Assembly (NCBI GenBank): GCA_024280395.1
Contig: JAJRQG010000063.1
Location: forward strand, 1 to 64,000
DNA from: Gammaproteobacteria bacterium
Lineage (GTDB): Bacteria; Pseudomonadota; Gammaproteobacteria; Xanthomonadales; Marinicellaceae
Direction: 5' to 3'
DNA length: 64,000 bases
Part shown: positions 10,969 through 56,826 of the stretch, piece by piece
Layout: each line of letters begins with the position of its first letter
How positions within the stretch are numbered: position 1 is the stretch's first letter
Translations under genes and position numbers: made by a program
The notes under the pieces: model-generated
Databases searched by the model: none
What the model was told of the DNA's origin: nothing
The model's input: the letters and a program-made list of their open reading frames with translations, nothing else

Positions 10969-11304
10969 TCAATCACAACAATTCACACATTTTGTTGCAG
11001 CTGGATCAATAGATAATCGCCCTAAAATGATTTCTTCATCACACACCTCACAAAAACCGTAATCATCATTGTCTATGCGAATCAATGCAGCTTTAATTTG
11101 CACCATACTATTTTTACGTCGACGTTCAACTTCCATTGCCATTTGTTGGGCTTGCATGGCATCCATGCGAGACAAACGGCCCACACTGTTTTGATCTAAC
11201 ACTACCGTAGCTGCCGATGTTTTTAATGACTGTTTTAATTCACCCAGCTCAACTTGCTTTTTCAACAACTGATCTTTTAATTTTAAGATGTCGCTCTGAT
11301 TCAT
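10969..11304 (-). CDS. DksA/TraR-family zinc finger protein
   Basis: A 111-residue protein with a helical N-terminus (coiled coil, residues about 3-35) and a C-terminal four-cysteine zinc site CEVC...CVNC near 85-109. This is the short DksA/TraR type, which can bind the RNA polymerase secondary channel. The acidic DxxDA tip of true DksA is only partly matched (LSRMDAMQAQQ), so a DksA2 or YbiI-like role is possible. Its ATG overlaps the stop of the upstream membrane protein gene (ATGA), so translation is coupled. Confidence 0.82.
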   Translation of the reverse strand: MNQSDILKLKDQLLKKQVELGELKQSLKTSAATVVLDQNSVGRLSRMDAMQAQQMAMEVERRRKNSMVQIKAALIRIDNDDYGFCEVCDEEIILGRLSIDPAATKCVNCCD

Positions 11305-11897
11305 TGGGCAGGTTGTAGCAGTTTCTTGGCCAAAATATCTAAACCCGAACCCAAAATGGTTCTCTTAACCACCAAAATGTCGTCTAATTCTGAAGACAAC
11401 CAGGTGGTTTCAACGTATCTCTTGTCATTAATCACTATTTTTTCTAAACCTGATTTTTCTATTCTTAGGCTTCCATCGTTCTTGGTTCTTTTGTGTTCTA
11501 CTCCTGAATTTCGATAAATAACCACCGAAGCAAAAGGCAAACTGTGGCCATCTTTGGCAACAAAAGTGACATCCTGATAACTGACATAAGAAACAATCGG
11601 TTTTACTACAAACAGCCCAACGACAATGGCAATGACGACATATAGTCCAACCTTACTGCTGTCATCGGATTCTTTTTGTTGGTTGTATTCATTGAACTCT
11701 TCGGTTTTTTTCTTCCTTTTGTAGGGCTTTACTCTTTTCATGGTAAATCCAGTGATGAACAACCCAATAATCAGTTCTATTAACAGCAAAAATAGATTGA
11801 TAATTGCCCCAAAGAACAAAGCAAAACCTTCAAATAAGAATCCAAACAATCCTTCAAAGATTGAAAAGAACACCGCAATTATTTCATCGATTATCAT
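11301..11897 (-). CDS. Membrane protein with C-terminal beta domain, unknown
   Basis: A 198-residue protein. The first about 52 residues are very hydrophobic and form one or two membrane segments; a charged linker (RKKKTEEF) follows, then a second segment (YVVIAIVVGLFVVKPIVSYV). The last 80 residues look like a carboxypeptidase-regulatory or Ig-like fold (FASVVIYRNSGVEHKRTKNDGSLRI). No family is recognised. It is translationally coupled to the DksA-like gene through an ATGA overlap, which hints at a shared unit but gives no function. Confidence 0.65.
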   Translation of the reverse strand: MIIDEIIAVFFSIFEGLFGFLFEGFALFFGAIINLFLLLIELIIGLFITGFTMKRVKPYKRKKKTEEFNEYNQQKESDDSSKVGLYVVIAIVVGLFVVKPIVSYVSYQDVTFVAKDGHSLPFASVVIYRNSGVEHKRTKNDGSLRIEKSGLEKIVINDKRYVETTWLSSELDDILVVKRTILGSGLDILAKKLLQPAQ

Positions 11898-12239
11898 TTT
11901 AAAATATTTTCCTCTTAATTACTGGCCACATCATTACCGCAAAGTAGCAGCTAGTATCCGGTTTAAGTGTAAGGCACGCTCTTCACACAATGGATAATTG
12001 TATAATTGTATACTTGTAAAAATATGATTAAATCAAATAAAACTCGAACGGGTAGTTGGGTTTAGCCAACCAATAAAACCCTTGGTTTTAAAACGTGTTG
12101 ACTAAAGCCAACTACCCGAAGGTTCTTTGGTTTTGTTGACAATATACATTAAATTCCAATGATTTACGTACCTTAATCTTCTAAAGTAGATTCTGGTAAA
12201 ACTCACCTTACTTTTATCTATTATACGCTGTTAAATAAT
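11898..12239. other. Intergenic region with one long hairpin
   Basis: A stretch of 342 bp without a convincing gene. It holds the hairpin at 12049-12118 and AT-rich sequence on both sides. The TTTAACAG at about 12228-12235 (minus strand) is a weak candidate for the lost left arm of a second attC site, but the second arm is not visible. Confidence 0.5.
12049..12118. repeat. 70-bp nearly perfect inverted repeat
   Basis: The arm 12049-12070 (begins CGGGTAGTTGG) pairs with 12097-12118 (ends CCAACTACCCG) at 20 of 22 positions, and the centre has a further AAAACC/GGTTTT stem. This makes a single long hairpin, like a small MITE or a dispersed structured repeat. It has no T-run on either side and no coding capacity. 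Confidence 0.6.
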
Positions 12240-12377
12240 TCATGGTATTTTATTAATACCTTGATGGCCTAGGGTTGCTCTGACAAATAGGAATTTACTC
12301 AGCTCTGTTTCAAGTGCATCAGCATTTAAATTCCATATGGCTTTGGTATCTACCAACACTTCTTCACGCATTTTCAT
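12240..12377 (-). CDS. Possible 45-residue cassette ORF, unknown
   Basis: A short reading frame (MKMREEVLVDTKAIWNLNAD...) that begins 17 bases after the far end of the attC-like site, with AAAGAGA eight bases before its ATG, exactly where a following gene cassette would place its gene. It ends at a TGA at 12240. No homology is recognised, and it is too short for codon statistics; it may be a truncated gene. Confidence rests on position and ribosome site only. Confidence 0.35.
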   Translation of the reverse strand: MKMREEVLVDTKAIWNLNADALETELSKFLFVRATLGHQGINKIP

Positions 12378-12394
12378 TGTGTTTCTCTTTACCA

Positions 12395-12493
12395 GTAACA
12401 CCGTATTAAGCGTGCTAAAACAGTGGTTATAATGTGTAGCGAAGCGAAACCTAATCCACAGTTTTAGTTCAGTTTAAATGCCTTGTTATGTGC
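12395..12493 (-). other. attC-like integron recombination site
   Basis: On the minus strand the site starts with GCACATAACAAGG, contains the acetyltransferase stop codon (TAA), and ends near GTGTTAC at 12395. Inside, CTAAAACTGTGG (12456-12467) pairs with 12415-12426 at 11 of 12 positions around a loop with GCTTCGCT, and the outer arms (TAACAAGGC / GGTGTTAC side) are imperfectly complementary. Length about 95 bp is normal for attC. The left core GCACATAAC is the exact reverse complement of the first nine bases of the cassette (GTTATGTGC at 12959-12967), as expected for a cassette's own pair of core sites. Confidence 0.72.
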
Positions 12494-12947
12494 ATTTCCT
12501 GCATTTTAGTTGCATTGGTACGTAGCGTATACCATTTATATTTAGTTCTTTCGAAGTAGCAACAAAACCTATTTTTGTATAAAATTCTATGGCATTCACT
12601 GAGGCTTTTAACTTAATATAATCAGCATCACTATTTTTTTGGACTTCCTCAACAAGCCTCTTACCTACACCATGGCCTTGATATTTTGATTTCACATAAA
12701 GTTGAGCAATATAATGTTTTTGTCGCCATGCGATATAGCCGATAATTTCGTTTCCTACCATTGCTTTTATAGCAGTATAAATATCTGGGTTTGTAACTTG
12801 CAGGATATCAGGTTTACGGGCTTTTCTCATGGCCTTTTTTCCTTGTTCATTAAGCTTAGGGATAACATACTTTTCATTAACCAACTCTGCCAAATTAAGG
12901 ATTTCTGTTTGATCCTGCGGAGTTATTCTTCCTAGAGTAAAATCCAT
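12486..12947 (-). CDS. GNAT N-acetyltransferase carried on a gene cassette
   Basis: A 153-residue GNAT-fold protein. The acetyl-CoA-binding motif is seen in YVKSKYQGHGVGKRLVEEV (Q-x-x-G-x-G, near residues 93-98), followed by the C-terminal NAIEFYTKIGFV motif B strand. The substrate is unknown. It begins 11 bases after the cassette core site, with AGAGG before the ATG, and its stop codon lies inside the attC-like site, the tight packing typical of integron cassettes. Its surroundings (cbpA to the right, small genes to the left) are ordinary chromosome, so it was probably acquired by insertion. Confidence 0.85.
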   Translation of the reverse strand: MDFTLGRITPQDQTEILNLAELVNEKYVIPKLNEQGKKAMRKARKPDILQVTNPDIYTAIKAMVGNEIIGYIAWRQKHYIAQLYVKSKYQGHGVGKRLVEEVQKNSDADYIKLKASVNAIEFYTKIGFVATSKELNINGIRYVPMQLKCRKCT

Positions 12948-12958
12948 TTATTACCTCT

Positions 12959-12967
12959 GCACATAAC
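12959..12967 (-). other. Cassette 5' boundary core site
   Basis: Minus-strand GTTATGTGC, a GTTRRRY-like integron core, lies 11 bases before the acetyltransferase ATG. It is the exact inverse of 12485-12493. No full attC or attI is visible further upstream, so the cassette may have entered a secondary (G^TT) site. Confidence 0.6.
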
Positions 12968-13024
12968 ATATTATTAAACCAACAAATAAACATGGTTTCA
13001 TCCTATTTGCATATAAACCCACTA

Positions 13025-13948
13025 TCAACCCCTAGGATTAAAATCAAATTGTTCGGCAAGTGCGTTCCATTGTTCTTCTGTTTGATCACTTTCTGGTGGA
13101 TTAACAATTTTAATCACGGCGTATAGATTGCCCGCTACGCTTGTTGCAGTGGCTGGAAATCCTTTGCCTTTGAGGCGCATTTTTTTGCCTGTTTGCATAT
13201 TTTTAGGGACATTCATTCCCACTGAACCCGTTGGAGTCGGAACATTGACTTTGGCACCCAATGCAGCTTCCCATGGTGTGAGCAATAAATCGGTATACAC
13301 ATCTTTGCCTTTTAATTCAAACTTATGGTCTTGGTCTAATTCAATTTTTAGCAATAAATCACCATTGGAACCTCCATTGATTCCCGGCTCTCCTTTGCCT
13401 TTGAGGCGAATACTTTTACCTGGTTCTATGCCCTTGGGGATTTTGACGTTCAACCGTTTTTCGGTCATATAAGCCTGGCCATGTGCACCTTCTTCCACCT
13501 GTTTAATCATAAAAGTACGATTCACTCCAGTGTATAAATCTTTTAAAGGCACTTTGATGGTCTGCTTAATATTTTGGCCTTTTCTAGCAACAGCTTGTCT
13601 TTGCCCACCAAAACCAGCGTGTGCTCCACCTCCTTGTTGACCGAAGACCGATTCAAAAAAATCGCTAAAATCAGCACCGCCACCAAAACCGCCTTGTCCA
13701 CCAGGAGCACCATGTCCTTGCTGACCTTGCTTCCAATTAGAACCCAACTGATCATAAGACGCCCTATTCTCATCATTTTTCAAGACTTCATAGGCTTCGC
13801 TAATTTCTTTGAATTTATCTTCGGCATTGGCGACCTTGCTTCTATCTGGATGGTATTTACCAGCAAGTCGCTTGTATGCTTTCTTTATTTCGGCTTTTGT
13901 GGCTTTTTTATCAACGCCCAATATTTTGTAGTAATCTTTGTAATCCAT
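13025..13948 (-). CDS. cbpA: CbpA-type J-domain co-chaperone
   Basis: A 307-residue class II J-protein. It has an N-terminal J domain (DYYKILGVDKKATKAEIKKAY, HPD at about 33-35), a Gly/Phe-rich linker (residues about 75-120, GGQGGFGGG), and two C-terminal substrate-binding beta domains with the paired LKGKG repeats. There is no zinc-finger domain, which separates it from DnaJ. It would recruit DnaK to clients or the nucleoid. No cbpM modulator gene is next to it; the upstream small gene is DUF4404-like instead. No strong ribosome site precedes the ATG. Confidence 0.9.
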   Translation of the reverse strand: MDYKDYYKILGVDKKATKAEIKKAYKRLAGKYHPDRSKVANAEDKFKEISEAYEVLKNDENRASYDQLGSNWKQGQQGHGAPGGQGGFGGGADFSDFFESVFGQQGGGAHAGFGGQRQAVARKGQNIKQTIKVPLKDLYTGVNRTFMIKQVEEGAHGQAYMTEKRLNVKIPKGIEPGKSIRLKGKGEPGINGGSNGDLLLKIELDQDHKFELKGKDVYTDLLLTPWEAALGAKVNVPTPTGSVGMNVPKNMQTGKKMRLKGKGFPATATSVAGNLYAVIKIVNPPESDQTEEQWNALAEQFDFNPRG

Positions 13949-55017: not shown

Positions 55018-56826
55018 TTATTCTTCAAAAGAATCTACAAACAATAAATCAGGTAATTGCTCTATGGTAATGACATTGTTTGTCCTGAAAGTCATAAGAG
55101 CCCAATCAGCACCAGTAATAATATTGTCGTTATTAACATCTAAATATACAGCAGTTAATAAATCATAAACTCCAAGTTGAACATTTGAAGGCAAACTAAA
55201 ATTTCGATTCAGGTCATTAATACCAGCTTGCATTAAAGTAAAAACATCATCATTTGATGAATCAGAATAGACAGCACTACTATTAATTAAGCTTGCACCA
55301 AGAACAATAGGGCCAAATGAAGTGGCATTTGCGTTAAAAACTTGAAAATTTATTGTAAAGGTTTGATTGGCATGCACTGTGCTTACACTACTGGTAATGG
55401 CGTCAATTCTTATTGGCGAAGTATTGTATTGACTTCGGTTTCCCGAAGGGTTATTTTGGGCGTTATAATAGAAATCGACAATATCGGCAAATCCTTCACC
55501 TGCCAGAGCATTGAATTGCGTACCCCATTGAGACATGCCTCGACCATGTCCGAAACATCCGCGACCAGTTGAAGAAGGATCACTCAAACAAGACCAGTCT
55601 GTCGCGGGAGAACCAACAGATCCGTCCCCACAGGACAAGTCCGCATTGGTACAGGACAAGCCATCACCCGGATCATTCCAACTGTTGTTTTGTGCTGAGT
55701 ATTCTGAACGGGCAAGTTCTCCATTTTTTTCAAGCATGATACCAGTTGTTGCTTTTGCCGCATTTACTGTGGCCGTATAACTGGTACTGCCAAAAGCTTG
55801 GCAACATGGTCCTGCACAGATATCATAGCCGTTATATGGTGGATTTAACACATGCCAAGCGCCATAAGAACGGAAAGGAATGCTACCAGCCTTGAGACTT
55901 TCAGTATTCCACGATGAAATCCATTCATTGTCTAGACCTTTTTGCACATAACTCTCAAGGGAATACACTTGACTGCTTGTACAATTTGAGCCACAACATG
56001 TACCTCCAGAACTGCTAAAACCAACTCGAATGTTTGCTGGTGGTTGCATGAAAATGCCACCACCAGCACGTTCAGTTATCTCTGGTGGCAATTCACTTGC
56101 TTTTTGATATAACTTATCTTGCAACCATTCTTGATCGACTTTATTATTGAGTACATCAGATAAAGGATGATGCATACTGTGTTCAACAACTCCCATGCCC
56201 GGCTTTAAATCAATGATCATATTAAATGAAGATTTCGATTCAATAGCACTCCAAATTTGAGATATGTACCCTCTACTACTGAAAATTAACGTGGCATTAT
56301 CTGGAATCTCATCATCGAACATAAAAAACCCATCAGAATCACTTTTGGTCAAATATCGCACTTGGTTATTTGATAATTCGATGGTTACATTTTCAAGAGG
56401 GTTAATGGAATTTTTATCATAGATATAACCACAAATTCGGTTATTTTGACAGAGACTGTTTTTGGTCAGTCCCTCAAATCTATCTAAATTTATTTGCGTT
56501 AGTTTTACTTTACTTTCAGGCTCAATATAAGTTATTAAAGGTTTATAATTCCTAGCCTTTATTGATAACAATTGAGTTTTCTGGCTTGAAATCAGAGTAA
56601 TTTTGTTGTTCTGGACTTGAATTTTTTGTTTGTTAAAACCACTATTAAAAGAAAATTTTCCAAGCTTGATTTGTTGCCATTGACGTGTACTTAATTTATC
56701 TTTATCTACTTCTACAATTGTAATTTGGACATCAACTACTTCACCTGTTTGACTATCGCGAACGCTGAATTCATGCGCATTAGCTGTAAAATTTAAAATA
56801 AAAACAAAAGCAATTAATAGTGGCAT
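55018..56826 (-). CDS. Secreted SpoIID/LytB-domain protein
   Basis: A 602-residue precursor: signal peptide (MPLLIAFVFILNFTANA), a carboxypeptidase-regulatory-like beta domain (about 125-210; GYIYDKNSINPLENVTIELS), and a SpoIID/LytB domain (about 285-460) with SLESYVQKGLDNEW (the glutamate near 299 matches the catalytic one of SpoIID), SLKAGSIPFRSYGAW, and the hallmark GHGRGMSQWGTQ near 423. SpoIID enzymes cut peptidoglycan glycan strands at denuded sites. Cys-rich inserts (GGTCCGSNC; CAGPCC) suggest disulfides and export. It ends LLFVDSFEE, like two proteins of the neighbouring operon. No ribosome site precedes the ATG; the gene lies 508 bp upstream of the giant operon on the same strand. 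Confidence 0.85.
   Translation of the reverse strand: MPLLIAFVFILNFTANAHEFSVRDSQTGEVVDVQITIVEVDKDKLSTRQWQQIKLGKFSFNSGFNKQKIQVQNNKITLISSQKTQLLSIKARNYKPLITYIEPESKVKLTQINLDRFEGLTKNSLCQNNRICGYIYDKNSINPLENVTIELSNNQVRYLTKSDSDGFFMFDDEIPDNATLIFSSRGYISQIWSAIESKSSFNMIIDLKPGMGVVEHSMHHPLSDVLNNKVDQEWLQDKLYQKASELPPEITERAGGGIFMQPPANIRVGFSSSGGTCCGSNCTSSQVYSLESYVQKGLDNEWISSWNTESLKAGSIPFRSYGAWHVLNPPYNGYDICAGPCCQAFGSTSYTATVNAAKATTGIMLEKNGELARSEYSAQNNSWNDPGDGLSCTNADLSCGDGSVGSPATDWSCLSDPSSTGRGCFGHGRGMSQWGTQFNALAGEGFADIVDFYYNAQNNPSGNRSQYNTSPIRIDAITSSVSTVHANQTFTINFQVFNANATSFGPIVLGASLINSSAVYSDSSNDDVFTLMQAGINDLNRNFSLPSNVQLGVYDLLTAVYLDVNNDNIITGADWALMTFRTNNVITIEQLPDLLFVDSFEE

Follow-up and report, generated by a model that had tools for sequence, protein, structure and literature searches.

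A single integron-type cassette with a GNAT acetyltransferase gene at a chromosomal GTT site behind a cbpA-type gene

Organization of the cassette locus

The window, that is, the whole stretch of 64,000 nucleotides analysed here, lies on contig C94 of a genome assembly (G000) of 3.77 Mb in 158 contigs with a completeness of 99.31%. On its minus strand a cbpA-type DnaJ gene (13025–13948) is followed in the same direction by an ORF for a GNAT N-acetyltransferase of 153 amino acid residues (12486–12947; Pfam PF13673, 89.4 bits). This one short gene fills a gene cassette of 568 bp (12399–12966, minus strand; GC content 0.352), which was delimited by the closure test and appears to lie between two G^TT recombination points. 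Read along the minus strand, the cassette has the order core G^TTATGTGC, Shine-Dalgarno sequence, GNAT gene, inverse core, attC-like hairpin and G^TTACTGG end. The 5′ core GTTATGTGC (12959–12967, minus) is made up of what is probably a cassette-borne R′ and the target G at 12967, and it is followed by AGAGG (12954–12958, minus), which reads as a Shine-Dalgarno-like sequence with the start codon 6 nt further on. The initial annotation had noticed that this nine-base core returns as its exact inverse and that the acetyltransferase stop codon sits inside the second copy, and both observations hold: the R″ core GCACATAAC (12485–12493, minus) is the exact complement of the 5′ edge over 9 nt and overlaps the TAA stop codon (12488–12486), and the inverted pair reaches 11 exact nt when extended (12484–12494 and 12958–12968). 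In its present chromosomal form the attC-like site spans 12393–12493 (minus), with the last 6 bases presumably derived from the host. The imperfect palindrome of attC size described before was found again within it, as two central stem arms (12415–12426 and 12456–12467, plus strand) that are 92% complementary and enclose a GCTTCGCT loop. The site ends with the 3′ core GTTACTG (12393–12399, minus), where the cut is placed between G 12399 and T 12398. The marks of a cassette, namely complementary R″ and R′ cores and GTT at the cut, are therefore present. The 5′ junction reads ..TTGGTTTAATAATATG|TTATGTGCAGAGGTAATAAATG.. on the minus strand from 12990 down, and the 3′ junction, after the imperfect palindrome, ..AATACGGTG|TTACTGGTAAAG.. 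on the same strand.

The core GTTATGTGC occurs three times in the window (12959–12967 on the minus strand, 12485–12493 on the plus strand and 55944–55952), compared with a mean of 0.83 in shuffled sequences, and three copies were reached in 2 of 100 shuffles; the whole genome has 20 occurrences versus 23 for the reversed control 9-mer. The third copy lies within an unrelated ORF of 602 amino acid residues (55018–56826) and was taken as chance, not as part of the cassette. The 57 nt between the cbpA stop codon and the 5′ junction of the cassette are too few to hold an attC or attI, and the attI search of the window was negative, which agrees with the earlier statement that neither precedes the cassette. 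The GNAT gene begins 77 nt behind cbpA in the same direction, so that read-through expression may occur. Directly past the cassette there is an ORF of 45 amino acid residues (12245–12379, minus), which matches no Pfam family and lacks relatives among the searched loci. Further on, a 22-nt inverted repeat, CGGGTAGTTGGGTTTAGCCAAC and GTTGACTAAAGCCAACTACCCG with the arms 26 nt apart, lies at 12049–12118 and is REP- or MITE-like; the motif AACCAACTACCC, related to it, was seen near a lone cassette on contig C19 (L093) of the same genome.

The GNAT protein reached the cut-off of no NCBIfam equivalog, and no close relative was present in the 10 same-genus genomes searched; the best match in 60 related genomes has 36% identity over 76 residues. 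Close relatives were also not found in the plasmid records or the genome collection. Among 72,556 plasmid records, 22 contain relatives, all with less than 60% identity (the best, 33–36%, from Vibrio coralliilyticus), and the one plasmid region with such a relative that was inspected carries no integron annotation. Among solved structures, the closest ones belong to GNAT proteins that are distantly related.

Scoring and folding of the attC-like site

Candidate sites were scored by a motif matrix plus pairing. The training set comprised 28 attC sites from arrays next to intI in genomes of the same family, which remained of 32 after four doubtful ones (L068_2950, L071_241, L071_4276 and L076_5979) had been removed by eye. 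A first matrix, contaminated by readings of sites on both strands, was replaced by this one, and a lax pair search, which gave an excess of matches, was used solely to find seeds. The stems of the 28 training sites covary strongly, and real attC sites score 21.8–71.1 when left out one at a time. The linear site of the GNAT cassette scores 30.4, the top value in 64 kb (runner-up 20.6), and when it is closed on itself, its own 5′ edge serving as R′, it scores 42.0, within the range of real sites. The linear score was reached, without a core, by 2 of 150 Markov-1 null windows. These null windows contain 1240 attC-like sites scoring at least 12, of which 16 have an upstream core (exact over 9 nt, 150–2000 nt upstream), the best of them scoring 18.6, while the GNAT cassette's is the one closed attC site in the window. 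A cassette with its own attC, as had been proposed, is thus supported by a top score together with a closure unmatched in the 150 nulls.

It is known that attC sites recombine via the folded bottom strand. With RNA energies, the standing site forms a full hairpin on its bottom strand, with a z-score of −2.70, compared with +0.27 for the top strand; in the closed form the bottom strand has −5.64 (RNA) and −2.99 (DNA) versus −2.12 (RNA) and −2.27 (DNA) for the top strand. With DNA energies the linear site folds no better than shuffled sequences (−0.56 and −0.69). The L″ and L′ boxes are degenerate, the fold shows pairing with a bulge, and the GCTTCGCT loop resembles that of a real array attC in a relative.

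The covariance check that the initial annotation had suggested did not bear the site out, as the home-made models R1 and R2 (the latter from 23 listed sites, two more having been dropped and those below 66 nt excluded, 20 of them aligned) gave no match at the linear site with E up to 10 and filters off. This miss is a weak test, since the models are home-made and R1 missed training sites of its own (18 rows recovered versus 28 sites, with true sites lost). R2 found 33 rows in 15 loci, the window site not among them. Judging from the sequence, the models probably miss it because of the host-derived R′ (CTG for TGT) and the degenerate L boxes. The search of Rfam returned nothing.

Integron parts and target sites in the genome and the genus

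The statement that no integrase is nearby stands for the window, since contig C94 has no intI match and the window has neither an intI remnant nor similarity to attI, but it fails for the genome as a whole, where one intI above the cut-off, full-length, is located on contig C99 (399.5 bits, cut-off 265). The locus therefore lacks the intI and attI that stand beside the cassettes of a complete integron. Past the integrase match, contig C99 continues for 205 bp and ends at a core resembling attI, ..CACATATAATAAGTTG|TTA, and contig C98 starts with a second version of attI (92% identity over 140 nt to that of C99), followed by one cassette with a gene for 195 amino acid residues and an attC. The presence of two attI versions in one assembly (L126 1–140 on C98 and the end of L038 on C99) could reflect a duplicated attI or a mixture of strains. 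Besides these parts, the genome-wide search for further attC sites and intI, which had also been proposed, gave two further lone cassettes that pass closure, on C19 (a gene for 124 amino acid residues) and C36 (a protein kinase gene). The closed attC scores are 39.5 for C19, 53.6 for C36 and 27.7 for C98, the last below the 42.0 of the window. In the kinase cassette (L092 1561–2469) the listed ORF begins within the kinase domain, and its 5′ part may be frameshifted. The pattern TAACAAN{10,13}GGAC has 30 places in the genome versus 81 for the reversed control, and C19, C36 and C98 alone passed; the window site has no GGAC, and sites of this kind escape such scans. Moreover, the genome searches scored 150 out of 742 candidates and 150 out of 1155, so that the four cassettes (window, C19, C36 and C98) are a lower bound. 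Two other sites were not counted as cassettes: an attC-like hairpin on C37 (L117 2413–2491; 28.2 and 16.6 bits), which has no upstream core and stands just before a gene that we take to be rplU, a ribosomal protein gene, and a site on C119 (18.9), where a 9-nt core does lie 153 nt upstream but the score is at null level.

The target flank of the window cassette on the 5′ side, TTGGTTTAATAATAT (12968–12982, minus), recurs in part at two further cassette junctions in the genus: the flanks TTTAATAATATG in the window and GTTAATAATATG on C19 agree, and ATTAATAATATG stands before the cassette on contig C121 of another genome (G010). The sequence TTAATAATATG^TTATG is common to the 5′ junction of the window and one other lone cassette of the genome; the GTTATG within the shared 16-mer belongs to the cassettes themselves. 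The 12-mer AATAATATGTTA has 6 exact places in the genome, two of which are cassette 5′ junctions (C94 and C19), and its core is common to G010:C121; with one mismatch it is no commoner than the reversed control (67 versus 77). At a further exact copy, on C41 (L098), a complementary 9-mer follows 1221 nt on without an attC-like site, and this candidate was rejected. When scored by a 16-nt core matrix that was built from 14 other junctions in the genus and leaves out the window's own, the 3′ core ranks first and the 5′ junction 20th among the 2607 GTT sites of the window; with attI-type flanks alone the 5′ junction ranks 44th, and with the four other flanks alone 83rd. The shared 5′ flanks are suggestive of attI-like targeting, short of proof.

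Across the own genus, family and order, intI above the family cut-off is found in 39 of 61 genomes, own genome included, and in genomes of the same family it is accompanied by cassette arrays. With R2 there are 31 matches (E up to 1) spread over all 11 genomes of the genus, 8 on intI contigs (G009:C22, 2; G005:C356, 3; G003:C155, 1; G001:C7, 2) and 23 elsewhere, a split that overstates dispersal since draft contigs break at cassette repeats. Sequences that are attI-like or core-like, each with one cassette, lie beside intI remnants in G009:C4 (L179) and G010:C36 (L180), and both genomes have an intact intI elsewhere. Dispersed attI copies were considered as a new kind of landing site and given up, because these two adjoin intI remnants; decayed integrons explain at least those two. 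The cbpA gene is present in 8 of the 11 genus genomes (own included), and its named relatives in the genome collection come from MAGs labelled Lysobacterales and Alcanivoracaceae. Behind it, a GTPase gene, presumably of the YlqF type, follows within 4–18 bp in four other relatives and different genes follow in three; the cassette is absent from all of them. Relatives of the gene on the downstream flank (11304–11897) occur in three same-genus genomes in a different setting. Both flanks are kept in none of the seven relatives with cbpA, so that no empty site was seen and the cassette lies at a break in synteny.

Origin of the lone cassette

Based on these results, we consider it likely, with a probability of about 0.7, that one integron cassette, consisting of the GNAT gene and its own attC, was inserted by IntI at a plain chromosomal site of the attG type behind the cbpA-type gene. 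The target is neither attI nor attC, as judged from the attI search of the window and the short distance to cbpA. The cassette would have started as a circle whose attC had GTTATGTGC as R′. Through its folded bottom strand, this attC would then have undergone recombination with double-stranded genomic DNA at a G^TT site, so that the 5′ edge came to read G|TTATGTGC and the 3′ edge G|TTACTGG, the latter with a host-derived R′. The predicted empty-site junction is ..AATAATATG^TTACTGG.., i.e. ..TTTAATAATATG^TTACTGGTAAAG... The enzyme was probably the IntI encoded elsewhere in the genome. Both readings offered at the outset, a lone cassette and an insertion at a secondary site, fit this picture.

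A less likely, though by no means negligible, explanation is that the cassette is the last survivor of a former array or decayed integron, whose other cassettes, along with intI and attI, disappeared or were relocated by chromosomal rearrangement. In the genus, synteny breaks behind cbpA (GTPase gene in four distinct relatives, other genes in three), and attI copies beside intI remnants in G009:C4 and G010:C36 show that decayed integrons exist in the lineage; however, the 57-nt gap to cbpA bears no trace of attI or attC, the window has no intI fragment, and the sequence past the 3′ G^TT is not attC-like. It is very improbable that the acetyltransferase gene is an ordinary one next to AT-rich intergenic DNA in which the repeat and the hairpin arose by chance: the covariance models are silent at the site and its linear score is attained in 2 of the 150 null windows, but score plus closure are unequalled in the nulls (best 18.6), the stop codon, Shine-Dalgarno sequence and edges stand at cassette positions, and the folding differs between the strands. 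That the cassette arrived on another mobile element such as a plasmid or phage with an integron of its own, the resident IntI being uninvolved, can practically be dismissed: the lack of close GNAT relatives in the 60 related genomes, plasmid records and genome collection would suit it, whereas the flanks showed no noticeable trace of a mobile element, there is no phage match, and the genome has its own intI and more lone cassettes.

Thus, the ordinary interpretation, a single cassette placed by the resident integrase in an attG-type insertion, is the most likely one. The locus matches a SALIN in having one attC, one gene and no neighbouring intI on contig C94, and differs in that intI is encoded elsewhere in the genome and in that home-made models, rather than those of IntegronFinder, were used to score the attC. 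Insertion of cassettes into attG sites (Loot et al. 2024, as cited in passages of PMC12690207, PMC11023631 and PMC12444791) is alike in that a cassette enters the chromosome at a GTT site other than attI or attC, but that was an experiment in E. coli, while the present case is a natural one in an uncultured Lysobacterales-related lineage, with the empty site unseen. The aadB cassette at a secondary site of the IncQ plasmid RSF1010 (Recchia and Hall 1995, as cited in a passage of PMC10127599) is likewise a single cassette precisely inserted outside an integron; here the site is chromosomal and the cassette is not known as a resistance cassette. The own chromosomal integron (intI and attI on C99; attI copy and cassette on C98) has the same rule of core closure and the same attC type, but its cassette follows attI, while the window cassette stands without one. 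Lone cassettes, SALIN and attG insertion are already published, as passages of PMC9024848, PMC12690207, PMC11023631, PMC10127599 and PMC12444791 show, and our literature search found no paper on this lineage or locus. A bolder idea, that the resident IntI regularly scatters single cassettes into mimics of the attI core (..TTAATAATATG^TTA.. compared with ..TATAATAAGTTG^TTA.. in attI) and that much of the cassette pool lies off-array, is rather doubtful. Off-array insertion of cassettes is known experimentally and seldom documented, and there is value in natural cases whose genome also encodes the enzyme: they give native target sites for testing the attG rule, of which the genus has several, and they show integron genes turning into ordinary chromosomal genes and scattering through the genome.
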